Assembly: GCF_902167145.1 (NCBI RefSeq)
Contig: NC_050101.1
Coordinates: 179,548,428 to 179,612,427, forward strand
DNA: 64,000 bases
Source: Zea mays
Lineage: Eukaryota; Streptophyta; Magnoliopsida; Poales; Poaceae
Reading direction: 5' to 3'
Of the stretch, positions 15,011-57,072 are shown in pieces. Position numbers and translations under genes: made by a program. Within the stretch, counting starts at the first letter, position 1. Each line of letters begins with the position of its first letter. Under the pieces are notes generated by a model, which saw nothing but the letters and a program-made list of their open reading frames with translations, had not been told where the DNA came from and did no database searches.

Positions 15011-17758
15011 TTACCAGCGATCATTGCAAGAGCATTTCCCATCCGTAAAATGGTGAAACCGATCGGCGTCTCGAAGAATGATTTGGCGTCCGCATAGAGC
15101 AGATATGTGCTTGGCCACCTCATGGCAGTCACTGCACATCCTGGTGTTCTTGATCACCCTGATGGGCGTCCCGCTCGCATCTGAGTGGATCAGCCCATAA
15201 GTGATAGCTAGCTTCTCGGTGTGGCTGAGCAGCAGCTTCTCCTTGTCTTCTTCGGGGACGTTATACGCTATGCAGCTAGTGTCCGCCACATACCCTGCCT
15301 TCCTTATCTGAAGAACCAGACGAACCAGTTGTTGGTATATCTCCGCGGTGTCTGGGTGTGGTGGCTTCCCCTCGACTTGGAACACATGGATGCTTTGCTC
15401 GATCTGTATCCAGCTCCACCCAGGTCGAGTGTTCAGCGCTCTCGCTTTCATTGCATACTTGAGGCTCTCGGCTTCATCGAACATCTGTTCACGCTCGTAC
15501 AAGCTCACCATCTGCAGGTAGTTGGCTGAATTGTACGGCTCTAGCTTGAACAGTTTCCTTGCAGCTGCCTCGGCAAGAGCAAGGTTTCCATGTACCACGC
15601 AACCGGTTAGAAGGGCTCCCCATAGGCTCGCCGCTGACTTGAATGGTGACCTGTTGATGAAGTCCGTCGCTTCATCCAGGTACCCGCACCTTGCCAAAAG
15701 ATCAACCATGCACGCGTAGTTCTCAACGGTCGGTGTCACGCCGTATCTGCTCTCCATGGCATCGAAATAGTCCCACCCTTCAGTGATCAACTCCATTGAT
15801 CTGCAAGCAGTGAGCAGCGCTGTGAAGGTTATACTGTCTGGCTTCAATCCTGCTCCTGCTCCTGCACTAGCACTACACATGTCGTCGAACAGCGCTATTG
15901 CCTCACGGCCCTGCCCATGTGCTGCCAGCCCGGTGAGCATCGCATTCCAGGACACCAGATTCTTCTCCTCCTGAATCCTTTCGAATATCCGCGTCGCACT
16001 TGCCAGGTTTCCTGACTTGGAGTACATGTCGATTAGGGCTGTTGCAACAACCATGTCACGGTCATACGCTCTTCTTCGCAGTGCGAAGCAATGCAGCTCC
16101 TTCCCTTTCGCCAGCAAAGCCAGCCCTGCGCAAGCCCGCAGCAACACAGACATGGTAACCACGCTAGGCTGGACGTGGTCCTTCTGCATCTCATTGAAGA
16201 AGTAGAACGAATCTTCGTAGTCTCCATTATGGCAGCTTCCGGAGATCAGCGAGGTCCAAGAAACCACATTGGGTGTCAATCCAATCGCCTTCATCTGCCG
16301 GAGCAGCAGCACAGCCTGCGAGCTCCGACCGTTCATCGAATAGCCACTGATCAGCCCGTTCCAAGTGGTTATATCAGGGTCAAGCCTGTTCCTTTTCATC
16401 TCCTCCACAAGGTCCAGTGCATGGTCGAACTGACCCGCGTTCGAGTACCCAGCAACCAGCGAGTTCCATGTGGTGATATTCCTAAGCTCCAGCGTGTCGA
16501 ACACCTTCTGGGCGTATTCCAGGCGGCCACACTTGGCGTACATGTCAACGAACGCCGTCCCAGTGTACACGTCCGGCTCGAGCCGGTGCCTGAGGAAGAA
16601 GCAATGGGCTTCCATGCCATGCGCAAGCAGCCCCAAGCTGGCCACAGACTTGAGCAGGCTCGACATGGAGCTGGAGTCCGGTGGTATCCCTCGCTCCAGC
16701 ATGCTCCGAACCACGCCGAACGCCTCCCGGTCGCGCCCGTGCCGCGCGCAGCCCGACAGCACGGCGTTCCACGTCGCGAGGCTGGGGCTGGCCTCCACCG
16801 GCCCCGACCTCGCCATGCGCTCCGCGAGGTCCAGCGCGTCGTCAACGAGCCCGAGGCGCGCGCAGCAGGCAACGACGACGTTCCACGCGACGGGCGGCGC
16901 GTCCTCCGTCTCGAGCACCCGCCTGGCCGCGCCCACGTCCGCGCTCTCGGCGTACATGCCGGCAAGGAAGCCCGGCACGAGCGGGTGTGCGGCGACATGG
17001 CCCGCCTTGGCGGCGTGCGCGTGCACGGCCTGCCCCTCGCGGGGCGCCCCCGCGCGGCCGCACGCGTGGAGCGCCCGCGCGCACGCGTACCCGTCGGGAG
17101 CCACCCCGCGCGCCCGCATCTCCGCGAACGCGGCGATCGCGTCGCCCCACTCCTCCGCCTCAGCGAGCATGGCCACGCGCTTGTTCCACAGCATCGTATC
17201 CACTTCCTCGTCTCCCTCTTCCTTCCCCTCCTCCTCTGCTGCCGTCGCTTCCTGGAGCAAGCGCCGGGCCGAGGCCCAGCGGCCCAGGCGCGCGAGGAGG
17301 TCGGCGAGCGCGCACGCGACGCGCGGGTCCCGGGCGCGGCCCGCACGGACGGCCAGCGAGTGCAGCTGTGGAGCGAGGTGACGCGCCGCGGAGAGGCGCT
17401 CGGTGTCTTCGTCCCCGTGGGGGACATCTGCACACTGCCGCAGGAGGGAGACCAGGAGCCGCCCGTCGCGGAATGTCTCCACGCCTCGCAGCGCTTCCGG
17501 GAGCGAGCTGGCTTTGAGCAGGAGCCGAGGCGGGGGTGGAGGTTTGGCATGATGGTGGTGGTGGGTGGGCGGCGTCGGCAGCGAGAGGGAGATAGCTTGC
17601 GCGGTCATTGGAGGGGAAATGGAAAAAAAAGCAAGAGGATTTGATTTGCTGCGCAAGAAGTGAGGATAAGGGGATCTGAGAAAGCAAAGCTGCTGATTGA
17701 AAGTGGGCTTGGGCCGACACTTACGAGTCGGCGGCCTCAAATACTCTGTACGGAGCAC
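15011..17758 (-). CDS. PPR protein, PLS class with E and DYW domains (organelle RNA editing factor)
   Basis: This is an uninterrupted 915-codon frame typical of intronless plant PPR genes. After an N-terminal region (about 1-190) come PPR motifs with the usual signatures (WNVVVACCARLG, TWNSLVAGYSNAG, DITTWNGLISGYSMNGR, NVVSWTSLISG, VVATALIDMYSKSGN), then an E/E+ segment and a DYW domain ending in CSCNDRW. The deaminase motifs HTEK and CSDCH (zinc/catalytic residues) are intact. The C-terminal two thirds resemble Arabidopsis At4g01030 (PCMP-H65, annotated mitochondrial). Family role: site-specific C-to-U editing of organelle transcripts; the target site cannot be read. The first ATG (17758) gives an Arg-rich, amphipathic leader. 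A second ATG (17608, MTAQAISLSLPTPP) gives a Ser/Pro-rich leader. Either could be a targeting peptide. Confidence 0.92.
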   Translation of the reverse strand: MLRTEYLRPPTRKCRPKPTFNQQLCFLRSPYPHFLRSKSNPLAFFSISPPMTAQAISLSLPTPPTHHHHHAKPPPPPRLLLKASSLPEALRGVETFRDGRLLVSLLRQCADVPHGDEDTERLSAARHLAPQLHSLAVRAGRARDPRVACALADLLARLGRWASARRLLQEATAAEEEGKEEGDEEVDTMLWNKRVAMLAEAEEWGDAIAAFAEMRARGVAPDGYACARALHACGRAGAPREGQAVHAHAAKAGHVAAHPLVPGFLAGMYAESADVGAARRVLETEDAPPVAWNVVVACCARLGLVDDALDLAERMARSGPVEASPSLATWNAVLSGCARHGRDREAFGVVRSMLERGIPPDSSSMSSLLKSVASLGLLAHGMEAHCFFLRHRLEPDVYTGTAFVDMYAKCGRLEYAQKVFDTLELRNITTWNSLVAGYSNAGQFDHALDLVEEMKRNRLDPDITTWNGLISGYSMNGRSSQAVLLLRQMKAIGLTPNVVSWTSLISGSCHNGDYEDSFYFFNEMQKDHVQPSVVTMSVLLRACAGLALLAKGKELHCFALRRRAYDRDMVVATALIDMYSKSGNLASATRIFERIQEEKNLVSWNAMLTGLAAHGQGREAIALFDDMCSASAGAGAGLKPDSITFTALLTACRSMELITEGWDYFDAMESRYGVTPTVENYACMVDLLARCGYLDEATDFINRSPFKSAASLWGALLTGCVVHGNLALAEAAARKLFKLEPYNSANYLQMVSLYEREQMFDEAESLKYAMKARALNTRPGWSWIQIEQSIHVFQVEGKPPHPDTAEIYQQLVRLVLQIRKAGYVADTSCIAYNVPEEDKEKLLLSHTEKLAITYGLIHSDASGTPIRVIKNTRMCSDCHEVAKHISALCGRQIILRDADRFHHFTDGKCSCNDRW

Positions 17759-18393: not shown

Positions 18394-18560
18394 ATCTGGT
18401 ATCAGACGAGTTCGACCTTGGAGAATCTTCCTCCCATTCCTGGCCGTCGCCCACGCTCCACGACGTCAGCAGCGGGTGTTGGATCAGCTCGGCCAAATGG
18501 ACGGGCGGCTTAGCCAAATGGAGCAGCGTCTGACGGACGCGCTCATAGGACGCTGCGGCG

Positions 18561-18718
18561 AACTCGAGCAGCGTCTCGCCGATGCTGAGCAGAAGGCCGA
18601 GGCGCGATTCATCTCTCTCGAGACGGATCAGGCTCAGATTGAGGGTTGGCGTCCCGAGGTCGACAAACGCCTCGACAACATCGCGCTGGAGCTTAATCGC
18701 GCCAACAAGTTCATGGAG
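18561..18718 (+). repeat. 158-bp direct repeat in J gag, copy 1
   Basis: It starts AACTCGAGCAGCGTCTCGCC and ends AAGTTCATGGAG. It repeats at 19024-19181 with one visible difference (GGCCGAGG against GGCCAAGG). Confidence 0.85.
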
Positions 18719-18726
18719 CGCGAAAC

Positions 18727-18942
18727 TGTTAGGAGTGGCTGCCATGTGGGGCCATTGCCAGAGGACAAGTGGGTTTCTGCGGCTATAAAAGAACAGTTGT
18801 ATAGGCTAAGAGGATATCAATTACCAATTATCAGAAAACAAACACTATCCTCCCTTACCTCGTCTCTCCAGTTTACTACTAGCTTTCTCTCTACTCTCTC
18901 TCTACTTGCTATTTCTCTCTAAGAGCATCTGTGATGCTAACA
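18727..18942 (+). mobile_element. Solo LTR G (same family as elements A and B)
   Basis: A 216-bp sequence starting TGTTAGGAGTGGCTGCC and ending GATGCTAACA, flanked by perfect 5-bp TSDs GAAAC (18722-18726 and 18943-18947). It matches the reverse complement of the LTRs of elements A and B, so it inserted in plus orientation and lost its internal region by LTR-LTR recombination. Confidence 0.9.
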
Positions 18943-19023: not shown

Positions 19024-19181
19024 AACTCGAGCAGCGTCTCGCCGATGCTGAGCAGAAGGCCAAGGCGCGATTCATCTCTCTCGAGACGGATCAGGCTCAG
19101 ATTGAGGGTTGGCGTCCCGAGGTCGACAAACGCCTCGACAACATCGCGCTGGAGCTTAATCGCGCCAACAAGTTCATGGAG
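19024..19181 (+). repeat. 158-bp direct repeat in J gag, copy 2
   Basis: Second copy of the gag segment at 18561. The 216-bp solo LTR lies between the copies, beside copy 1. Near identity implies a recent duplication compared with the age of J. Confidence 0.85.
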
Positions 19182-19486
19182 AGAAACTCTGGCGGCCGCC
19201 TGCCAACCACACCTTCGCCGATGGGCCAATCGGCCACCGCCTCCCAGAATACCACTGGGAACGTGAGTTTGCGAGAATCCCTCTCCAAACCCACGGTACG
19301 TGTCCAGATCCATTCTCTCATAGCTATGCCAATTTTGGTGATACTGCACGGGATCTGGATGGGGTCGTCGCGAGGGAAGTCAAGGGGGTTGCGGAAAATT
19401 ACCACGTCTGAATTTTTCATCGTTCGACGGGGACAATCCGTAGTTGTGGAAGACGCTTTACGTGAATTATTTTGACATGTATGTTG

Positions 19487-19711
19487 TGTTAGCAACACAG
19501 AAGCTTCTAGAGAGATAACATGTAGAGAGAAAGTAGCAGTAACGTGGAAAGGGGGTAAGGGAAGGAGAAGACGAGAGGATATGTGATAATAGTGTTTGTA
19601 TTCTGATAATTGGTAATTGATAACCCTTTTAGCCTATACAACTGTCCTTTTATAGCTATAGAAACCCACTTGTCCCCTGGCAATGGCCCCACATAGCAGC
19701 TACTCCTAACA
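19487..19711 (-). repeat. 3' LTR of element A
   Basis: 225 bp, reading TGTTAGGAGTAGCTGC...GCTAACA on minus. It contains a TATAAAAGG box (minus strand, near 19655). Upstream on minus is the polypurine tract GCGGTGGGGAA. Confidence 0.92.
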
Positions 19712-19729
19712 TTCCCCACCGCTTGAAAT

Positions 19730-19749
19730 GCGGCTTGCCCTCAAGCCGC
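19730..19749. repeat. Perfect hairpin beside the polypurine tract, element A
   Basis: GCGGCTTG, a CCCT loop, then CAAGCCGC: an 8-bp perfect stem about 20 bp inside the LTR. The same hairpin is found in element B at 22893-22912. Confidence 0.7.
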
Positions 19750-19917
19750 AGATAGTGTAGCCAGCCTTGGTGTTGAACTGGTTGCGGGTAAATTGGTAGA
19801 TGACTGTTTGGTCGTAGGAGCAGTAGCTGGTGATGGCTTATCTGGCAAAGTGTTGCTCTGCTTCAGAACCTGGATGCAGCAAAGATGCTTGGCCTCGTAG
19901 CAGCTGCTCCTACAATA

Positions 19918-21888
19918 CTAGAATGGCTTGTCCCACTGGAGTTGCGATAGGGAAAGGAGAATCACCTGCCACCCTTTCTTCTTGACAAAAGACAGACTAG
20001 CATGTTGCATCTGTAAGTCTCCCAAACCATGAATAGACAGATGCAGTACGCAACACTGATCACCACCTAGATTATGCTTTCCATTGAACAGCTCCCATTT
20101 TGCTTCAATTGTATGAAGTTGAACGGGTTCTGCAAAGACCACAACCAATTGTGACAGAATAGACTGGCCTTTGGGCTCCAAAGTGGACATCCCGTGTTCC
20201 CCAGCAGATTCATATATCAGGTGGTCTGGAAGTAGTTGTAACTTGATCAAGGCCCCAGAAGGAAATGAAGACACCAAACCTTGCAAACAGACCGACGTTC
20301 CCTGATAGGAGATAATCATCCACTTGTTGTACCAGCCCACTTTCATCGTGCTATGCACTTGTAACCAGTTCCTACCCAGGTTGAGATCCACCAATGGCAA
20401 GGATAGAAATATCAGGTCGACGACGAACTGGTAACCAGACATGGGCCATCTAGTTTGTGGTAACTGATGAGAACAAGAGATGATCGGACTCTTGGCCACT
20501 TTTACATTCAGACAGCGCTCCAAGGGTTGAACACCAGTCAACAATGGAAAGTACTTATCATTGATGGAAGTATGTGAAGATCCTGAATTAATGAGCACCA
20601 AAATATCTTGATGCTGAATTTGACCTTGTAAACGCCATGTGGTAGCTGTCTCGGTACCAGACCATGCTGAAGATGACAACACCATCAGGAGCTGATCAGA
20701 GTTGATGAGGTTGAAGCGAGCAGGGTGGGATATAACCCTGATGCAGCCTTGGTAGAAAAGATTTCCTGGATCCCACGATTGCACTAATTTTCTGCAACAA
20801 AATTTCCAGCAAAATCCATGGAAGTTATGAATCCCACTCCACCAGACACGTACTGAAGACTGCAGCAAAGCATCGAAACCGTCGAGTACAAGTGAGATAA
20901 TACTAGCAGCCCCATGACCGTTTAGGCCTCCTTCAATAATCTCTAACTCATACTTCTTAAGTACTAGCGGGCCACATTTTTCACCACTCTTCTGCTGCGC
21001 CAAGGCTTCAATAAGTTCATATCCTAGCCATGTAAGTAACTCATGCAAAGTGACAGAAGCTCTGATGTATCGTTGAAGTAACCATGGTGGTTTCCAAACA
21101 AAAAGAGCATTCAAATTCATACAACAATTAATCATCGATGTGAAACTCGGCCATGGCATTGGACGTATCATACCACACACATGAAAAATCTCCAATGGAA
21201 TGAGGATAAAGTGAGCATGGTAGGATATGAATATACCCTTCCTATCCACCATGTTCCATCCCGGCGCAGCGGAATCCAGCAGCACGTCGACGAGGTGGTT
21301 GTCCAGCAGGTTGACCTCGTAGACGTACAATATGCCTCTGTTGGTCTTGGCGATTAGGCCGGACTTGAACGCATTGCCGCCCTCGGTGGCGGCCTTGAGG
21401 AACGCGGTTTTGCCGACCCTTGCCATGCCGTAGATGTCAACGGCGCCCACGTCATCGTCACAGACACAGGTGTGGAGCTCGTGGAGCAGCGCGTCCTTGC
21501 CGCGAACCGACGCGCTCGGCATCTCCTCGAAGCGGATCTGGACGAGCTCGACGGTGTCCTTGCGGAAGTCTGCCTGCTCGTTGAGGTGGTAGGTGGCCTT
21601 TGTAGCTGGACTGCTGGAGGCCGGGTCGGGCGAAAGCTGCAGGGGCGGCTGGTACTCGTCGACGATCCGCGCGGCGGCGTCCTCGAGCAGGATGCACCCG
21701 ATCTGACTGGTGGCCTCCACGTCTTGGCGCTCAACAGCGTCGACCATGAGCTTGCCATGGTGGAGGGAAACGACTCTCCCTCGAAGACAGGTTCCTCGTC
21801 GAAGATAGGACCCTCGTCGAAGACAGGTTCTTCTTGCTGCTAGAAGGTGTAGTAGCTCGCTGTGAAGTGGCTGTGGAGCTCGTCGCAC
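19918..21888 (-). pseudogene. Chimeric ORF of element A: NB-ARC-like + ChlI-like + retropepsin
   Basis: One open frame of 656 codons. Residues about 90-166 resemble the start of an NBS-LRR nucleotide-binding domain (QIRFEEMPS, GKDALLHELH, VGAVDIYGMARVGKTAFL with a P-loop). Residues about 167-231 (21196-21390) resemble the Mg-chelatase subunit ChlI: GGNAFKSGLIAKTNRGILYV, EVNLLDNHLVDVLLDSAA and ISYHAHFILI. The Walker-B-like YVDE of ChlI is YVYE here. Residues 231-400 are unrecognised, with a second short ISHPARFNLI word. Residues 425-500 are a Gypsy protease (VLINSGSSHTSI, normally DSGS), followed by the linker to a missing reverse transcriptase. ChlI normally inserts Mg into protoporphyrin in plastids; this piece lacks most of the AAA+ domain and should not be active. 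Identification of the ChlI piece is firm, the NB-ARC piece likely. Confidence 0.75.
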
Positions 21889-22072
21889 CGCGCGTCCACG
21901 CGGCGCTCGACGCCGTCACAGCGACCAACAATTTTCTCGGTAAGGCGGGCTTCCATCAGGCGCATTTCGTCGAGCACCTTACAAGCGATGGCATCGAACA
22001 AATCCATAGCAGTGGATCGCGGACGCCGATGCGCTGCTCCGAGCGGATCCAGGATGCTGCTCTGATACCAGA

Positions 22073-22297
22073 TGTTAGCAACACAGAAGCTTCTAGAGAG
22101 ATAACATGTAGAGAGAAAGTAGCAGTAACGTGGAAAGGGGGTAAGGGAAGGAGAAGACGAGAGGATATGTGATAATAGTGTTTGTATTCTGATAATTGGT
22201 AATTGATAACCCTCTTAGCCTATACAACTGTCCTTTTATAGCTATAGAAACCCACTTGTCCCCTGGCAATGGCCCCACATAGCAGCTACTCCTAACA
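22073..22297 (-). repeat. 5' LTR of element A
   Basis: 225 bp, essentially identical to 19487-19711. The initiator-Met-type primer-binding site directly follows it on minus (RC of 22058-22070). Confidence 0.92.
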
Positions 22298-22643
22298 TGT
22301 TGTTGATCTTCACATGTGGATTAGGGTGGCTTCAATGCATTTCACGGGACGCGCCAAAGGTTGGTTGCATCGCCGCGTACCATTCTGGTCGTGGTCTTGG
22401 TCTGAATTTTGTGCCCATGTTCACGATTGCTTTGCACGTGATCAACACGAGTCCTTGATTCGCCAGTTGTTCCACATACGGCACTTAGGATCGGTTGCAT
22501 ATTATGTTGATCGTTTTTCCATTTTAGTGGATCACCTCTCTGCTTATGAAGAACATGTCGATCCATTATATTATACTATGTGTTTCGTAGATGGTATGCA
22601 TGTCCGCTATTATGGTGCAACGTCCCTCTACATTGGATACTGC

Positions 22644-22874
22644 TGTTAGCGTTACGGATGCTTCTAGCGAGAAATAGCAGGTATAGAGAGAGAAAGCTAG
22701 CAGTAACATGGAGACATGTAAAGGAAGGAAGAAGACAGAGAATAGACGATGATAGTGTTTGTATTCTGATAATTGGTAATTGATATCCATCTTAGCCTAT
22801 ACAACTGTCCTTTTATAGCTGCAGAAACCCACTTGCCCCTTGGCAATGGCCCCACATGGCAGCCACTCCTAACA
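22644..22874 (-). repeat. 3' LTR of element B
   Basis: 231 bp, TGTTAGGAGTGGCTGCC on minus through to CGCTAACA. It is clearly homologous to the LTRs of A and G but with more differences, so it is an older insertion or another subfamily. Confidence 0.85.
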
Positions 22875-22892
22875 TTTCCCACCGCTTGAAAT

Positions 22893-22912
22893 GCGGCTTG
22901 CCCTCAAGCCGC
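22893..22912. repeat. Perfect hairpin beside the polypurine tract, element B
   Basis: Same GCGGCTTG-CCCT-CAAGCCGC hairpin as in element A at the same distance from the LTR. Confidence 0.7.
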
Positions 22913-23158
22913 TAACCATAATCGCCAAGTTGCCGGAGGCCATGCACAGTCCAGGCGCTCAAACTCCATAGGTGGAGGCCACAGTTGCTTGAATCCTACT
23001 ACACTGTGAGCAAGTCCTGCTAAGTCATGAATCAGGGGCTGCATCCAAGCTTGGTCACCTCCTTTCTGTTCATACATCACACAACCTTTATGCCAGGTTC
23101 CCAATAGAGGAGGAGCTACTTTAGGCAGTAACATGTAGTAGTTTGGATGATAATCGAG
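22913..23158 (-). other. Element B sequence between PPR fragment and polypurine tract
   Basis: About 245 bp with no open frame of note. It separates the end of the PPR piece (stop at 23159) from the hairpin and LTR. Origin unclear: degenerate retroelement or captured 3' sequence. Confidence 0.4.
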
Positions 23159-24370
23159 TCACTCCATTGGATAATTTGGGCACCCAGGAATACCGAGGTC
23201 CTGGAGCATGCCAAATGACCTGACCACATCGTCAGTGCGCCCCGCCTTGCCATAGCATCGGCTGAGTGAGGTCCAGACAAAGATATTTGGCTTTAATCCA
23301 GCCTCCACCATTTCATTCAGTATGACCTCTACACCTAGGACGTTGGCAGTTGATGAATACTGCATCACCATCGATGAGTACCTCCACTTATCAGGCTTGG
23401 AATGATCATCCATGGGCACGCTGAGGTCTCTGAAGATCTCCTCAGCCTTGTCCACATAGCCAATGTCGGCGTACATGGATAGAAGCATGTTGTAGAGCAT
23501 CACGCCCATTGCCTCATCCTTCATCAGCTGGTACACAGCCATGGCATCCTCGCCAGTGAGTGCCCTAGTGTATGCATGCAGGAGACAATAGTAAGCCGTC
23601 CTACTGGGCTGCACTTGCTTGTTAACCATCTCCCTGTGGATGGTCTTCACCACCCAAGGTTGCAACACATGGCCCATGACATCCAACATTGTGTTGCACA
23701 TGACCAGGTTTGGCTTCACACCAGTTGCCTTCATTTCCTCGAATACGTTGAGTGCACCGTTGAAGTTGCCACTGGTTGAGTGGACCTTGTTCACTGTACA
23801 ACAGAGCACAGGGTCCAGCTGCCATTTCTCCGCGCGAGCGCGACAGAGGGCTGCCTCGAAGTTCCCAGTGTGGATGTACGTGTCGATCACCGCAGAGTAT
23901 GTGAGCCAGTCCGGTGAGCACCCAAACTCCGGCATCTTGTCGAACCACTCGACAACCTTGCTCAGGAGGCCGTAGGCGCACACAACTGATGATGGTCGAG
24001 AAGATGGTGTTGCCGGGCTGCATGCCGTGCCGTAGCATCTTGGCCCATAGCGCCTCGGTCTCGCGCCAGTGTCGTTTCTTGCGCAGCAGCTTGAGCTTGA
24101 CTTTGTAGATGATGACCTTCTTCCAGACCTCAACGTTTCCTAGGAACCAGCGGAGAGCGAGCACAGCGATCTCTGGCCTGGTGGCGGTAGCCATGTTGAG
24201 CATGATGACGGTGTCCTGCTCGGAGGGAGGCTCAGGAAAGGCAGACTGAAGCCCGGCCTCTACGACGGCTTCGTCAGGATCGCATGCCTTGAGCACCGCC
24301 GCGGTGGAGGCGAGACGTGCGTGGCGGCCCAACCCAGCACGCATGGGTGTGTCAGCAACTCTCATCCCAT
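23159..24370 (-). pseudogene. Captured PPR gene fragment resembling ATP4 / SVR7 (PPR-SMR type)
   Basis: Two overlapping minus-strand frames joined by a frameshift near 23985. Frame one reads ACDPDEAVVEAGLQSAFPEP, PEIAVLALRWFLGNVEVWKK, WRETEALWAKMLRHGMQPG and STIISCVRL. Frame two continues with VVEWFDKMPEFGCSPDWLTY, SAVIDTYIHTGN, ALNVFEEMKATGVKPNLV, EEIFRDLSVPMDD and KAGRTDDVVRSFGMLQDLGI. These are consecutive PPR motifs in the order of the plastid PPR-SMR protein called ATP4 in maize and SVR7 in Arabidopsis, which acts on plastid ATP-synthase mRNAs. The C-terminal SMR domain is missing: the frame diverges after QDLGI and stops at PNYPME. A frameshift and loss of the N-terminus and SMR domain make this non-functional. 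It has no introns, so RNA-mediated capture is possible. Confidence 0.8.
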
Positions 24371-24589
24371 GAACCCTCAACGTCGTCGCGATGGACGTGC
24401 CAATCCGCTCATGCGCGTCGTCCAGGTTGTGGATGAAGGCCGGGTAGCAGGTGACCATCTGGAAGCACCAGAGCTCATGGGAAAAGTCTGGAAGACCGAT
24501 GGTGTGGTGCAGGGCACAGTTGGAGCCGTAGTCATCGGAGCTAGGCCCACCCACGATGTAGACCACGAGGAGGTTGGGTATGGAGTAGG
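24371..24589 (-). other. Unidentified coding-like segment of element B
   Basis: The minus-strand frame stays open upstream of the PPR piece (HTYSIPNLLVVYIVGG, GLPDFSHELWCFQMVT, FIHNLDDAHERIGTS). It does not look like PPR or gag. It continues across the Sirevirus insertion into 56292-56711. It may be another captured host gene; I do not recognise it. Confidence 0.4.
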
Positions 24590-26239
24590 TGTGAATCATC
24601 TAGGCCCCTTAGTGATGTTTTGGTAATTAATGATAACTATTTGTGGACTAATAGTTCTTAGAGAAATAAGAATGCAGGTTGGACCACAGAGAACAGAAAA
24701 TCTTGGAGACTTATAAGTATTGGTTGTGGATCAAGTGAAGACAAAGGTATAACATAGGTTTTTGTTTTTGCCGGTCTCTAGGAGTTTAGAGAAGACATTT
24801 GACCGGATTAGTAGGCTAGATGGCCGTACTATTAAGAGGGGTCAATGACTTTGGTCTGTGTAAAACTTAGTCTAACAACACTTCCGGTTTCGAGAGTTAA
24901 AAAATCTTTTCGAAAGCATGTTTGAAAAGTTGCTAAGTCATGGGGTTGGCGGACCGTCCGGGCCAAGTGGCCGGGCCGTCCGCGGTCTATCCAGAGGGGT
25001 CCGAAGTATGTTCACTTCGGACTGGTCCTGTATGTTTGTACTACGGACCGTCCGGGCCTTGGGGCCGGACCGTCCGTAGTCCTGACCAAAGAGGGTCGCC
25101 CTCTGCACAGTCCCTGTATAATTGTACGGACTGTCTGGCCGGGGTCGGCGGACCGTCCGCAGGTGCCAAATTTGTTTGGCAGGGACTGTGTGTTTTTGGG
25201 CACTTGTACTACGGACTGTCCGGGGTCTGAGCCCGGACAGTACTAACTCCCAGGTCGTGGACCGTCCAACCTTGTATGGCGGATAGTCCGCGTGTGTTAT
25301 CTCATCGTGGTCAGAGCTCTGGTGCTCCATGTTGCGAGGTTTCGAATGGTCCGACCAAGGTTGGCAGACTGTCCGAACTTCGCTTTTTCTGACAGCTCTG
25401 ACATATTTCAAACTGGAAATCTAGCTGTTACTTGTACGGCGGACCGTTCGGCCTAAGGGCGCGGACCGTCCGCGTGTGCGCAAAAGTTGTGCTAGTTGCA
25501 CATAACGGTTAGAAATGTGAAGTGGGCTATAAATAGAAGGGGAGCTCGTGTGTGAGGCTTCTCTTGGCCATTCCTTGCACACTTTGAGCTCATTTGTGAT
25601 CCTCCCACTCATTCTCTCACACTCCTTGCTTGAGATTGCATTCTAGTGAGAGATTGAGAGCTCCTAGTGCATTTGCATCCATTGGTGATTCTTGAGGCAC
25701 TAGGTGGTACACTGGGCAAGTGTCATCGGCTTGTTATTCTTGGAGGTTGCCGCCTTCTAGACGGCTCGGGTGTTGTCTCCGTCGAGCTCTCCAAGAAAAT
25801 TGTGGAGGAGCCGCGGTGTCGATTGTGAGGGGTTCGCGCCTACCTCGTCGGAGCGGCAAAGGCGACACTAGTGGAAACGAGGTATTGAGAGATTTCTTGT
25901 CCACTTGGCTCAAAGATCAAGCCACATCTTGATAAAGGAGCAAGTGAGAGCTTGAAGTCCACCTCAACGTGGATTAGGAGTGATCGGCAAATCACCGATA
26001 CCACGGGATAAAATCCGGTGTCTTTCTCTTCTCGCATTACTTATTACTGTGCAAGTAATTAGTATTTCGTGTATTGTCTCTCTTGTATACAATTACCATA
26101 GTTGTTTCTCATAGATTGCTTACTTGTTGTCACTAGAAAATTTATACCTCTTATCATATTGATTAAATTTCTCTAGTGTTTTTGATTTTAGTCAAAACTG
26201 TCTATTCACCCCCCTCTAGCCGGTGTCCTAGATCCTACA
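24590..26239 (+). repeat. 5' LTR of element D
   Basis: 1650 bp, starting TGTGAATCATCTAGGCCCC and ending GATCCTACA. It contains many copies of CGGACCGTCCG-like palindromes between 24945 and 25480, a TATAAATAG box near 25530 and the CACCCCCCTCTAG word close to its end. It lacks 38 bp that are present in the 3' LTR at about 54886. Confidence 0.92.
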
Positions 26240-56291: not shown

Positions 56292-57072
56292 GTAGATGCC
56301 ACGGTTGAGGCCCATTCTCGAACAATTGGTGGGTGTGATGGTGACAACCTCCTCCTCCTCTGCGTCGGTGTTGGGGACGAGCGCGGGATTCATCGCCTGG
56401 TCTGGTGACGGCAAGGAGAAACGGAGGCGGCGGACTTCGTCGGACAACTCCATCCCGCCGATGAGGACCTTCTCGTCCGGGTCCCGATGGAACAACATCG
56501 TGCCCTTGGGGAGGCATGGGTAGCGCGGTGATCCGCTGCTGTCGACGTTCGAGTCGAGCGTCACGTCGAGGTCGAGCGGCGCATAGACGAGGACACCGCC
56601 TGAATCGTTGTCAGCCGCGTTGGCGCTCGTGGCATCCTCGTCCAACACGTTGAGCTCCTGGAGGAGGTTGTCGTCGAGGTTGACGGGAGTATCGACAAAC
56701 GGTTGTGGCATGGTGTAGCAGTCGTCGTCGTAGAGCGGTGGGATACCGAGCCGGCGAGGAGCGTGGACGCCACCTTCGCCGCGTCATCGTGGACAAGAGG
56801 CGAAAGACTTGCCTCGTCATGGTACTGTGTGTTGACAACAAAAGAAGGAGGTGCGGATCCGTCGAAGGAGGAAGTGCGCTCGCGTGCGGACTGCTCGTCG
56901 CAGCGACCAGCCAGCGCATCGGTCATGCATGCCTCCGTTCGCGCCAGCGTGTCTGAGAATACCCTGCATCGCTGCCTCCATGGAGTCCATCACGGATGAT
57001 CGGGGTCACCACGACACAGCAGCGAACGGATCCAGAATACCCTGCATCGCCGCCTCCATGAACGCCTCCATG
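56292..57072 (-). pseudogene. Element B, 5' part: gag-like or captured sequence
   Basis: Continuation of element B beyond Sirevirus D. A minus-strand open frame (56711-56292) reads acidic text (QPFVDTPVNLDDNLLQELN, DEKVLIGGMELSDEVRRLRF) and continues in frame-like fashion across the D insertion to 24589. Upstream, MTDALAGRCDEQ recalls the LTDALIGRCGE of J gag. A 24-bp word (GAATACCCTGCATCGC...GCCTCCATG) occurs twice (56955, 57033). The 5' LTR is missing: at 57073 the sequence switches to element L. Confidence 0.45.

Follow-up and report, generated by a model that had tools for sequence, protein, structure and literature searches.

Can a small LTR retrotransposon assemble coding sequence from several host genes, and at what stage are such pieces joined? 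This question is raised by element A, a non-autonomous LTR retrotransposon at positions 19487-22297 (sense on the minus strand) of a 64,000-nucleotide stretch of maize DNA, hereafter the window. An earlier note on this DNA had described a very young gypsy element in which resistance gene-like (NBS) and Mg-chelatase ChlI-like sequences were joined in one frame, and had proposed that two host transcripts were copied in by template switching. Here, we describe the structure of the element, the history of its NBS-ChlI joint, and the family to which it belongs.

Structure, Age, and Surroundings of Element A

As shown in Table 1, element A has paired LTRs with TG...CA ends, a 5 bp target site duplication (TSD), a primer binding site (PBS), and a polypurine tract (PPT), the features that mark a non-autonomous Ty3/gypsy element. 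The PBS is presumably of the tRNA-iMet type. The two LTRs differed at one site across 225 bp, and TGTTG was present on both sides, confirming that the element is real and young. With the rate applied in PMC5664825 (1.3e-8 substitutions per site per year), this difference corresponds to an age of approximately 0.17 million years, with a very wide error.

Table 1. Features of element A and of its surroundings in the window.
Feature	Positions	Strand	Remarks
Target site duplication TGTTG	22298-22302		Other copy at 19482-19486
5' LTR of element A, 225 bp	22073-22297	minus
PBS TGGTATCAGAGC	22059-22070	minus	Adjoins the LTR at 22073
Gag-like N-terminal stretch	21759-22007	minus	Starts at ATG 22007; 83% to P0001 residues 1-83
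Captured NLR piece	21395-21761 (sense 537-903)	minus	Starts inside the CC region, ends just past the P-loop
Captured ChlI piece 1	21200-21396	minus	ChlI residues about 198-263
Filler, 466 bp	20734-21199	minus	171 bp at 87% to chromosome 4 element L009; no Pfam match
ChlI piece 2, 37 bp scrap	20697-20733	minus	Overlaps/repeats the end of ChlI piece 1
Ty3-type aspartic protease RVP_2	20347-20601	minus	E 4.8e-5, 23.6 bits (cut-off 20.3)
656-codon open frame	19918-21888	minus	Covers NBS, ChlI, and protease
PPT, purine-rich	19712-19725	minus	Adjoins the LTR ending at 19711
3' LTR of element A, 225 bp	19487-19711	minus
Gag gene of element C, right part	22303-22643	plus	Split by element A
Solo LTR, family of element A	18727-18942	plus	TSD GAAAC
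Element B, relative of element A	22644-24603	minus	LTR 22644-22875; PPR gene piece 23162-24139
Further family fragment	56292-56956	minus	Approximately 84-87% to the 5' parts of E48 and E52

Element A interrupts the Gag gene of element C, a further Ty3 element that lies on the plus strand (Gag match, E 7.1e-10). The LTR at 18727-18942 was considered as an LTR of element C and rejected, since the PBS of C lies at 18397 and the LTR has a TSD of its own, indicating that it is a solo LTR. A 158 bp block occurs twice in the Gag start of C (18561-18718 and 19024-19181, 99.4% alike), and the solo LTR stands after the first copy. Element B was 90.6% identical over 1290 columns to E48, one of the relatives described below, and carries the PPR piece of E48. 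No second LTR of B was found in the window, where B stops at the sequence of another LTR element. The family fragment at 56292-56956 adjoins a stretch matching the LTR-like repeat at 24635-26239, and a 915-codon frame resembling a PPR gene by eye lies beside the nested elements (15011-17758).

Gene Pieces in Element A

In sense order, element A consists of an LTR, the PBS, a Gag-like start, an NLR piece, a ChlI piece, filler, a ChlI scrap, the protease, a stretch without a Pfam match, the PPT, and an LTR. The long frame reaches 665 codons from stop to stop, compared with a maximum of 264 when the interior was simulated 300 times with a first-order Markov model. It joins NBS, ChlI, and protease sequence, and no Pfam match to reverse transcriptase or integrase was found in it, all as previously noted. 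The Gag-like start lies in another frame and has one stop inside, so element A as it stands encodes no full Gag-led chimera. A weak resemblance to the frame starts of element A and several relatives, over 15-58 residues, was seen in the Gag start of C, with E52 the best.

The NBS segment, first reported as P-loop-like, proved real and larger than noted. It was 75% identical to an intact NB-ARC/LRR gene of 907 codons on chromosome 3 over 415 columns with 48 gaps, and 55-56% identical to an RPS2-like protein. No Pfam NB-ARC match was obtained in the piece, which ends just past the P-loop. The 72-residue ChlI piece matched ChlI chains in the PDB (E 6.5e-22) and NCBIfam model TIGR02030 (E 1.7e-24; 86.7 bits, the whole-protein cut-off of 466.95 being far above), and was 87% identical in DNA to an intact chromosome 10 ChlI gene over 197 bp. 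The Pfam Mg_chelatase match remained below the cut-off (14.1 against 20.3 bits), and Pfam by itself would miss both the NLR and the ChlI pieces. In protein searches with the segment, the best matches after the retroelement chimeras P0001 and P0002 were genuine NLR and ChlI proteins. With intact relatives of both in the same genome, the claim that two host gene families are represented was upheld; between its PBS and PPT, element A carries sequence from more than one host gene, as expected of a gene-transducing, Bs1-like element.

History of the NBS-ChlI Joint

When the genome was searched with 801 bp spanning the NBS-ChlI joint, eight places were returned, element A included. The junction, which the earlier note had proposed to seek elsewhere, was found in element L009 on chromosome 4. 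The same NBS-ChlI-filler order was present there, with 86% identity over 734 columns; the LTRs of L009 (approximately 345 bp) are unlike those of element A, and the LTR end and leader were 63% identical, so that the modules are more alike than the LTRs. NLR deletions relative to the chromosome 3 gene were common to both elements, and the left end of L009 holds more of the NLR. By eye, the protease of L009 seems to begin twice, in the version of element A and then in its own. P0001, a protein from a 2455 bp record, reads the order of element A in one frame (77% to A). The occurrence of the joint in P0001 and under other LTRs in L009 indicates that it is older than the insertion of element A.

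ChlI sequence also occurred under a third LTR type, in L010, L011, and L012, and no LTR pair was seen for L011. A proline at one ChlI site was present in all six element copies reaching it (A, L009, L010, L011, L012, and P0001) and in none of the 116 ChlI-motif proteins among the matches listed. In addition, a two-residue insertion and the EMFSQ joint that follows it were common to P0001, L009, and L010-L012; element A is without that stretch. Derived changes shared by three LTR types suggest that ChlI was probably captured once and later transferred between LTR families.

These shared joints contradict the reading of the earlier note, in which each element captured its own pieces and A gained NBS and ChlI recently. 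The single difference between the LTRs of A would agree with a recent event; the derived ChlI change in six of six copies, the NLR deletions in both A and L009, and the same order in P0001 make such independent capture very improbable. Template switching stood as the likely route, but the captures were not made on the way to the present insertion.

L013, an apparent chimera with two ChlI pieces, has a different part of ChlI and may represent a separate capture event. A further ChlI-region match lies at C10:88984284, and the number of ChlI-bearing elements is a lower bound. Two other pieces of L013 are, by eye, presumably a glycosyltransferase and a CYP707A-like P450; the Pfam p450 match was below the cut-off (15.0 against 22.8). 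A CYP707A fossil at the NBS-ChlI joint of element A was weighed from a 12 bp match with L013 found by eye, and was set aside as a lead only.

A Family with Diverse Host Gene Cargo

The LTR of element A with the adjoining 289 bp gave at least 45 matches in the genome, which sets a lower bound on family size. Twenty regions were fetched among these matches, and 11 had paired LTRs around an interior (E45-E55). Because E52-E55 were 99.8% alike, element A and its 11 relatives (12 elements) represent nine distinct ones. Host gene sequence was present in eight of the nine, judged by Pfam matches above the cut-off or, for A, by the ChlI and NLR evidence. The cargo comprised PCMT in E45, a kinase in E46, PPR sequence in E47 and E48, a peroxidase in E49, a P450 in E51, and Methyltransf_29 with PCMT in E52, by which the E52 group was represented in the Pfam scan. 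E50 had no host gene domain above the Pfam cut-off. Ankyrin in E45, a zinc ribbon in E52, and a peroxidase stretch in E47 fell below it. Besides ChlI, L010 and L012 contained EF-hand (by Pfam) and PPR sequence, and pieces of more than one nuclear gene were held by A, L009, E52, L010, and L012. With host gene pieces in eight of nine distinct elements, the word rare in the earlier note does not fit this family.

Two LTRs of the family lie 9 bp apart with no interior at L056:792-1252, and similar close pairs were seen on contigs C442 and C506. By eye, a PWPPP or PWPSF coding motif recurs between modules in element A, several of E45-E52, L010, and L013; it might be sequence of the elements' own or a hot spot for joints.

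Probable RNA Origin and Orientation of the Captured Pieces

The EF-hand piece of L010 spans stretches of four exons of the chromosome 7 gene L065 (1287-1350, 1451-1661, 1765-1831, and 1930-2006), and the three introns between them, approximately 100 bp each, were absent. We take this gene, named by eye, to be CCaMK or CCaMK-like. For the methyltransferase of E52, matches on chromosomes 10 and 9 were split near residue 390 and the element was contiguous, which suggests a spliced source here too; a 45% match at C1:108824464 was unsplit. In element A, the ChlI piece falls within one continuous open stretch of the chromosome 10 gene and the NLR parent is a single frame, so the intron comparison is uninformative on A itself.

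Non-retroelement domains above the Pfam cut-off were detected in 10 of 21 sense frames and in none of 20 among the longer antisense frames. In E47, one antisense match of trehalose-phosphate synthase type (L047:1880-2578, minus) scored 19.9 bits, below the cut-off of 32.5, and possibly marks a genuine antisense piece. The usual sense orientation of transduced genes has been reported before, in the portion of PMC7264820 available to us.

DNA-based capture by a Pack-MULE or Helitron, followed by insertion of LTR elements, would be a familiar route in maize, where such capture is described as common in the consulted part of PMC2774510. It appears extremely improbable here, because the pieces are enclosed by PBS and PPT in elements that have paired LTRs and TSDs, and one of them is without introns.

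Mosaic Interiors and Probable Template Switching

The interiors of the relatives share blocks pair by pair in inconsistent combinations, indicating that they are mosaics. Both ends of E47 matched E48, whereas its middle matched E49 (95.5% over 1535 columns). The switch points were marked by 8 bp overlaps, GGAGCTCG and CAACTTCA, both inside one 838-codon frame. When E48 and E49 were cut at random, an overlap of at least 8 bp arose in 0.03% of trials; microhomology was measured at these two breakpoints of E47. L009 carried two LTRs and a shortened third inside one TSD, AGCAC.

Such mosaics could also form among integrated DNA copies, through ectopic recombination or gene conversion; RNA would then account for the first captures alone. 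The copies are dispersed and partly alike, and nested arrangements occur, as this process would need. Nevertheless, we consider it unlikely: the two breakpoints of E47 overlap by just 8 bp, modules have moved between LTR types that align poorly, and paired LTRs with matching TSDs were kept in E47, E49, and E50 (E48 with one mismatch). Moreover, an extra LTR within one TSD is the pattern that PMC1950507, in the sections consulted, ascribes to template switching.

Taken together, the comparisons of sequence make it highly probable that element A belongs to a maize non-autonomous Ty3-type family that takes up host mRNA, trades pieces through template switching by reverse transcriptase, and is mobilised in trans. 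Element RNA with an LTR, PBS, Gag start, and PPT would be packaged in particles of autonomous relatives together with either another element RNA or an mRNA of the host. Reverse transcriptase would then jump between templates, sometimes where they share a short sequence, and the pieces would be joined in sense. The jumping is supported by its outcome, namely introns missing in a relative, sense orientation, microhomology, and modules common to different LTRs. The chimera would integrate with a 5 bp TSD and be passed on by its copies, as the four E52-type copies and the near-identical LTRs of element A illustrate; NBS and ChlI would have been joined in an ancestor of A before the present insertion. 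Our confidence is lowered by breakpoints coming from one mosaic only and by the unlike Gag start of the candidate partner described next.

Mobility and a Candidate Autonomous Partner

The TSDs of E52, E53, E54, and E55 (ATTTC, AGCTC, CCAGC, and CCCAG) were all perfect and all different, and their LTR pairs had 1, 2, 0, and 0 differences, respectively. Perfect TSDs were found in seven of nine relatives checked, E46 and E48 being off by one base; the check covered the paired-LTR relatives other than E45, whose 3' LTR aligned in part, and E51. Mobilisation in trans, as the earlier note had it, is supported by the lack of a reverse transcriptase or integrase in element A. A candidate autonomous relative, L066, has 299 bp LTRs at 99.3% identity and a 1705-codon frame matching Gag, protease, reverse transcriptase with RNase H, and integrase (four pieces). 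Its start was 62% identical to the frame start of L010 over 55 residues and 52% to that of L012. No match to the Gag start of L066 was found in A, E45-E55, or L009. An intact autonomous partner with the LTR type of A was not found, the LTRs of L066 being of another type.

Open Frames and Selection

The longest sense frame exceeded all 300 simulations in 15 of 15 elements, among them four near-identical copies, and barely so in E45 (363 against 356). The longest antisense frame did so in none of the 15. Between shared segments, dN/dS ranged from 0.35 to 2.1 on few changes, with no clear constraint, implying that the open frame is seemingly better preserved than the protein. Open-frame chimeras appear to be at an advantage; avoidance of nonsense-mediated decay and the need for a Gag start are candidate reasons. 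P0122, P0124, and P0125, frames of this family, stand in public records as uncharacterized proteins of Zea mays, and two of them carry the locus names LOC103643974 and LOC103632672, under neither of which a paper was found in the open-licence literature.

If the frames were functional chimeric genes under selection at the protein level, long sense frames in all 15 elements against none in antisense would be expected, and the public protein records would be in keeping. This is quite unlikely, since dN/dS was not clearly below 1, the frame of element A shifts and meets a stop close to its beginning, and E45, E46, E48, and L009 are broken into several frames. More tentatively, and perhaps rather less likely than not to hold in full, several maize LTR families may form a retroelement exon-shuffling system that shares a pool of host cassettes through template switching, in which Gag-led chimeras with long frames would persist best and some would be catalogued as proteins. 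If so, such a system would continually make open chimeric coding sequences. Some uncharacterized maize proteins should be regarded with caution, as they are retroelement chimeras.

Comparison with Known Systems

Gene capture by LTR elements is already well known, for example from maize Bs1; what is new here is a multi-gene, cassette-swapping family. Bs1, like element A, is a maize LTR element carrying several host gene pieces, in its case from three genes according to the part of PMC13317346 consulted. Compared by description alone, Bs1 is one element, whereas the family of A consists of many elements with different cargo and shared pieces. Baucom et al. (2009, PMC2774510), in a survey of B73, likewise found host gene fragments within maize LTR elements that are intact, counting 425 such elements and at least 189 captures. 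Their screen with rice genes at E 1e-5, as far as the accessible text states, revealed no element combining fragments from two or more standard nuclear genes, as A, L009, E52, L010, and L012 do. In pepper and other plants, PMC5664825 reports, in the passages available, NLR sequence in non-autonomous LTR elements with trans-supplied functions and lost introns, and, in six plant genomes, single LTR elements enclosing two or three genes, which weighs against the novelty of the family of A. Those passages concern whole retrogenes or predicted genes, whereas the present family carries short unrelated scraps in one frame that are shared between LTR types. Template-switching complexes with an extra LTR within one TSD pair, as in L009, were described by Sabot and Schulman (2007), in the consulted part of PMC1950507; these join two elements, whereas the family of A also shuffles host mRNA pieces. 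In titles and abstract openings of the open-licence literature, no description of this family was found.

Because the mosaics have LTRs that can be dated, and parent genes that survive intact in the same genome, gene capture by template switching can be tested directly on them. TRIM and LARD elements have no coding capacity, unlike element A with its 656-codon frame and protease. Pack-MULEs have terminal inverted repeats and a 9 bp TSD, whereas element A has direct LTRs and a 5 bp TSD. Pack-MULEs and Helitrons carry several host gene pieces per element, acquired at the DNA level with introns kept and with other ends; the family of A resembles them in multi-gene cargo and differs in its LTR ends and in intron loss (L010). 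These results indicate that LTR elements, besides Pack-MULEs and Helitrons, can assemble sequence from several host genes and transfer it from one family to another.
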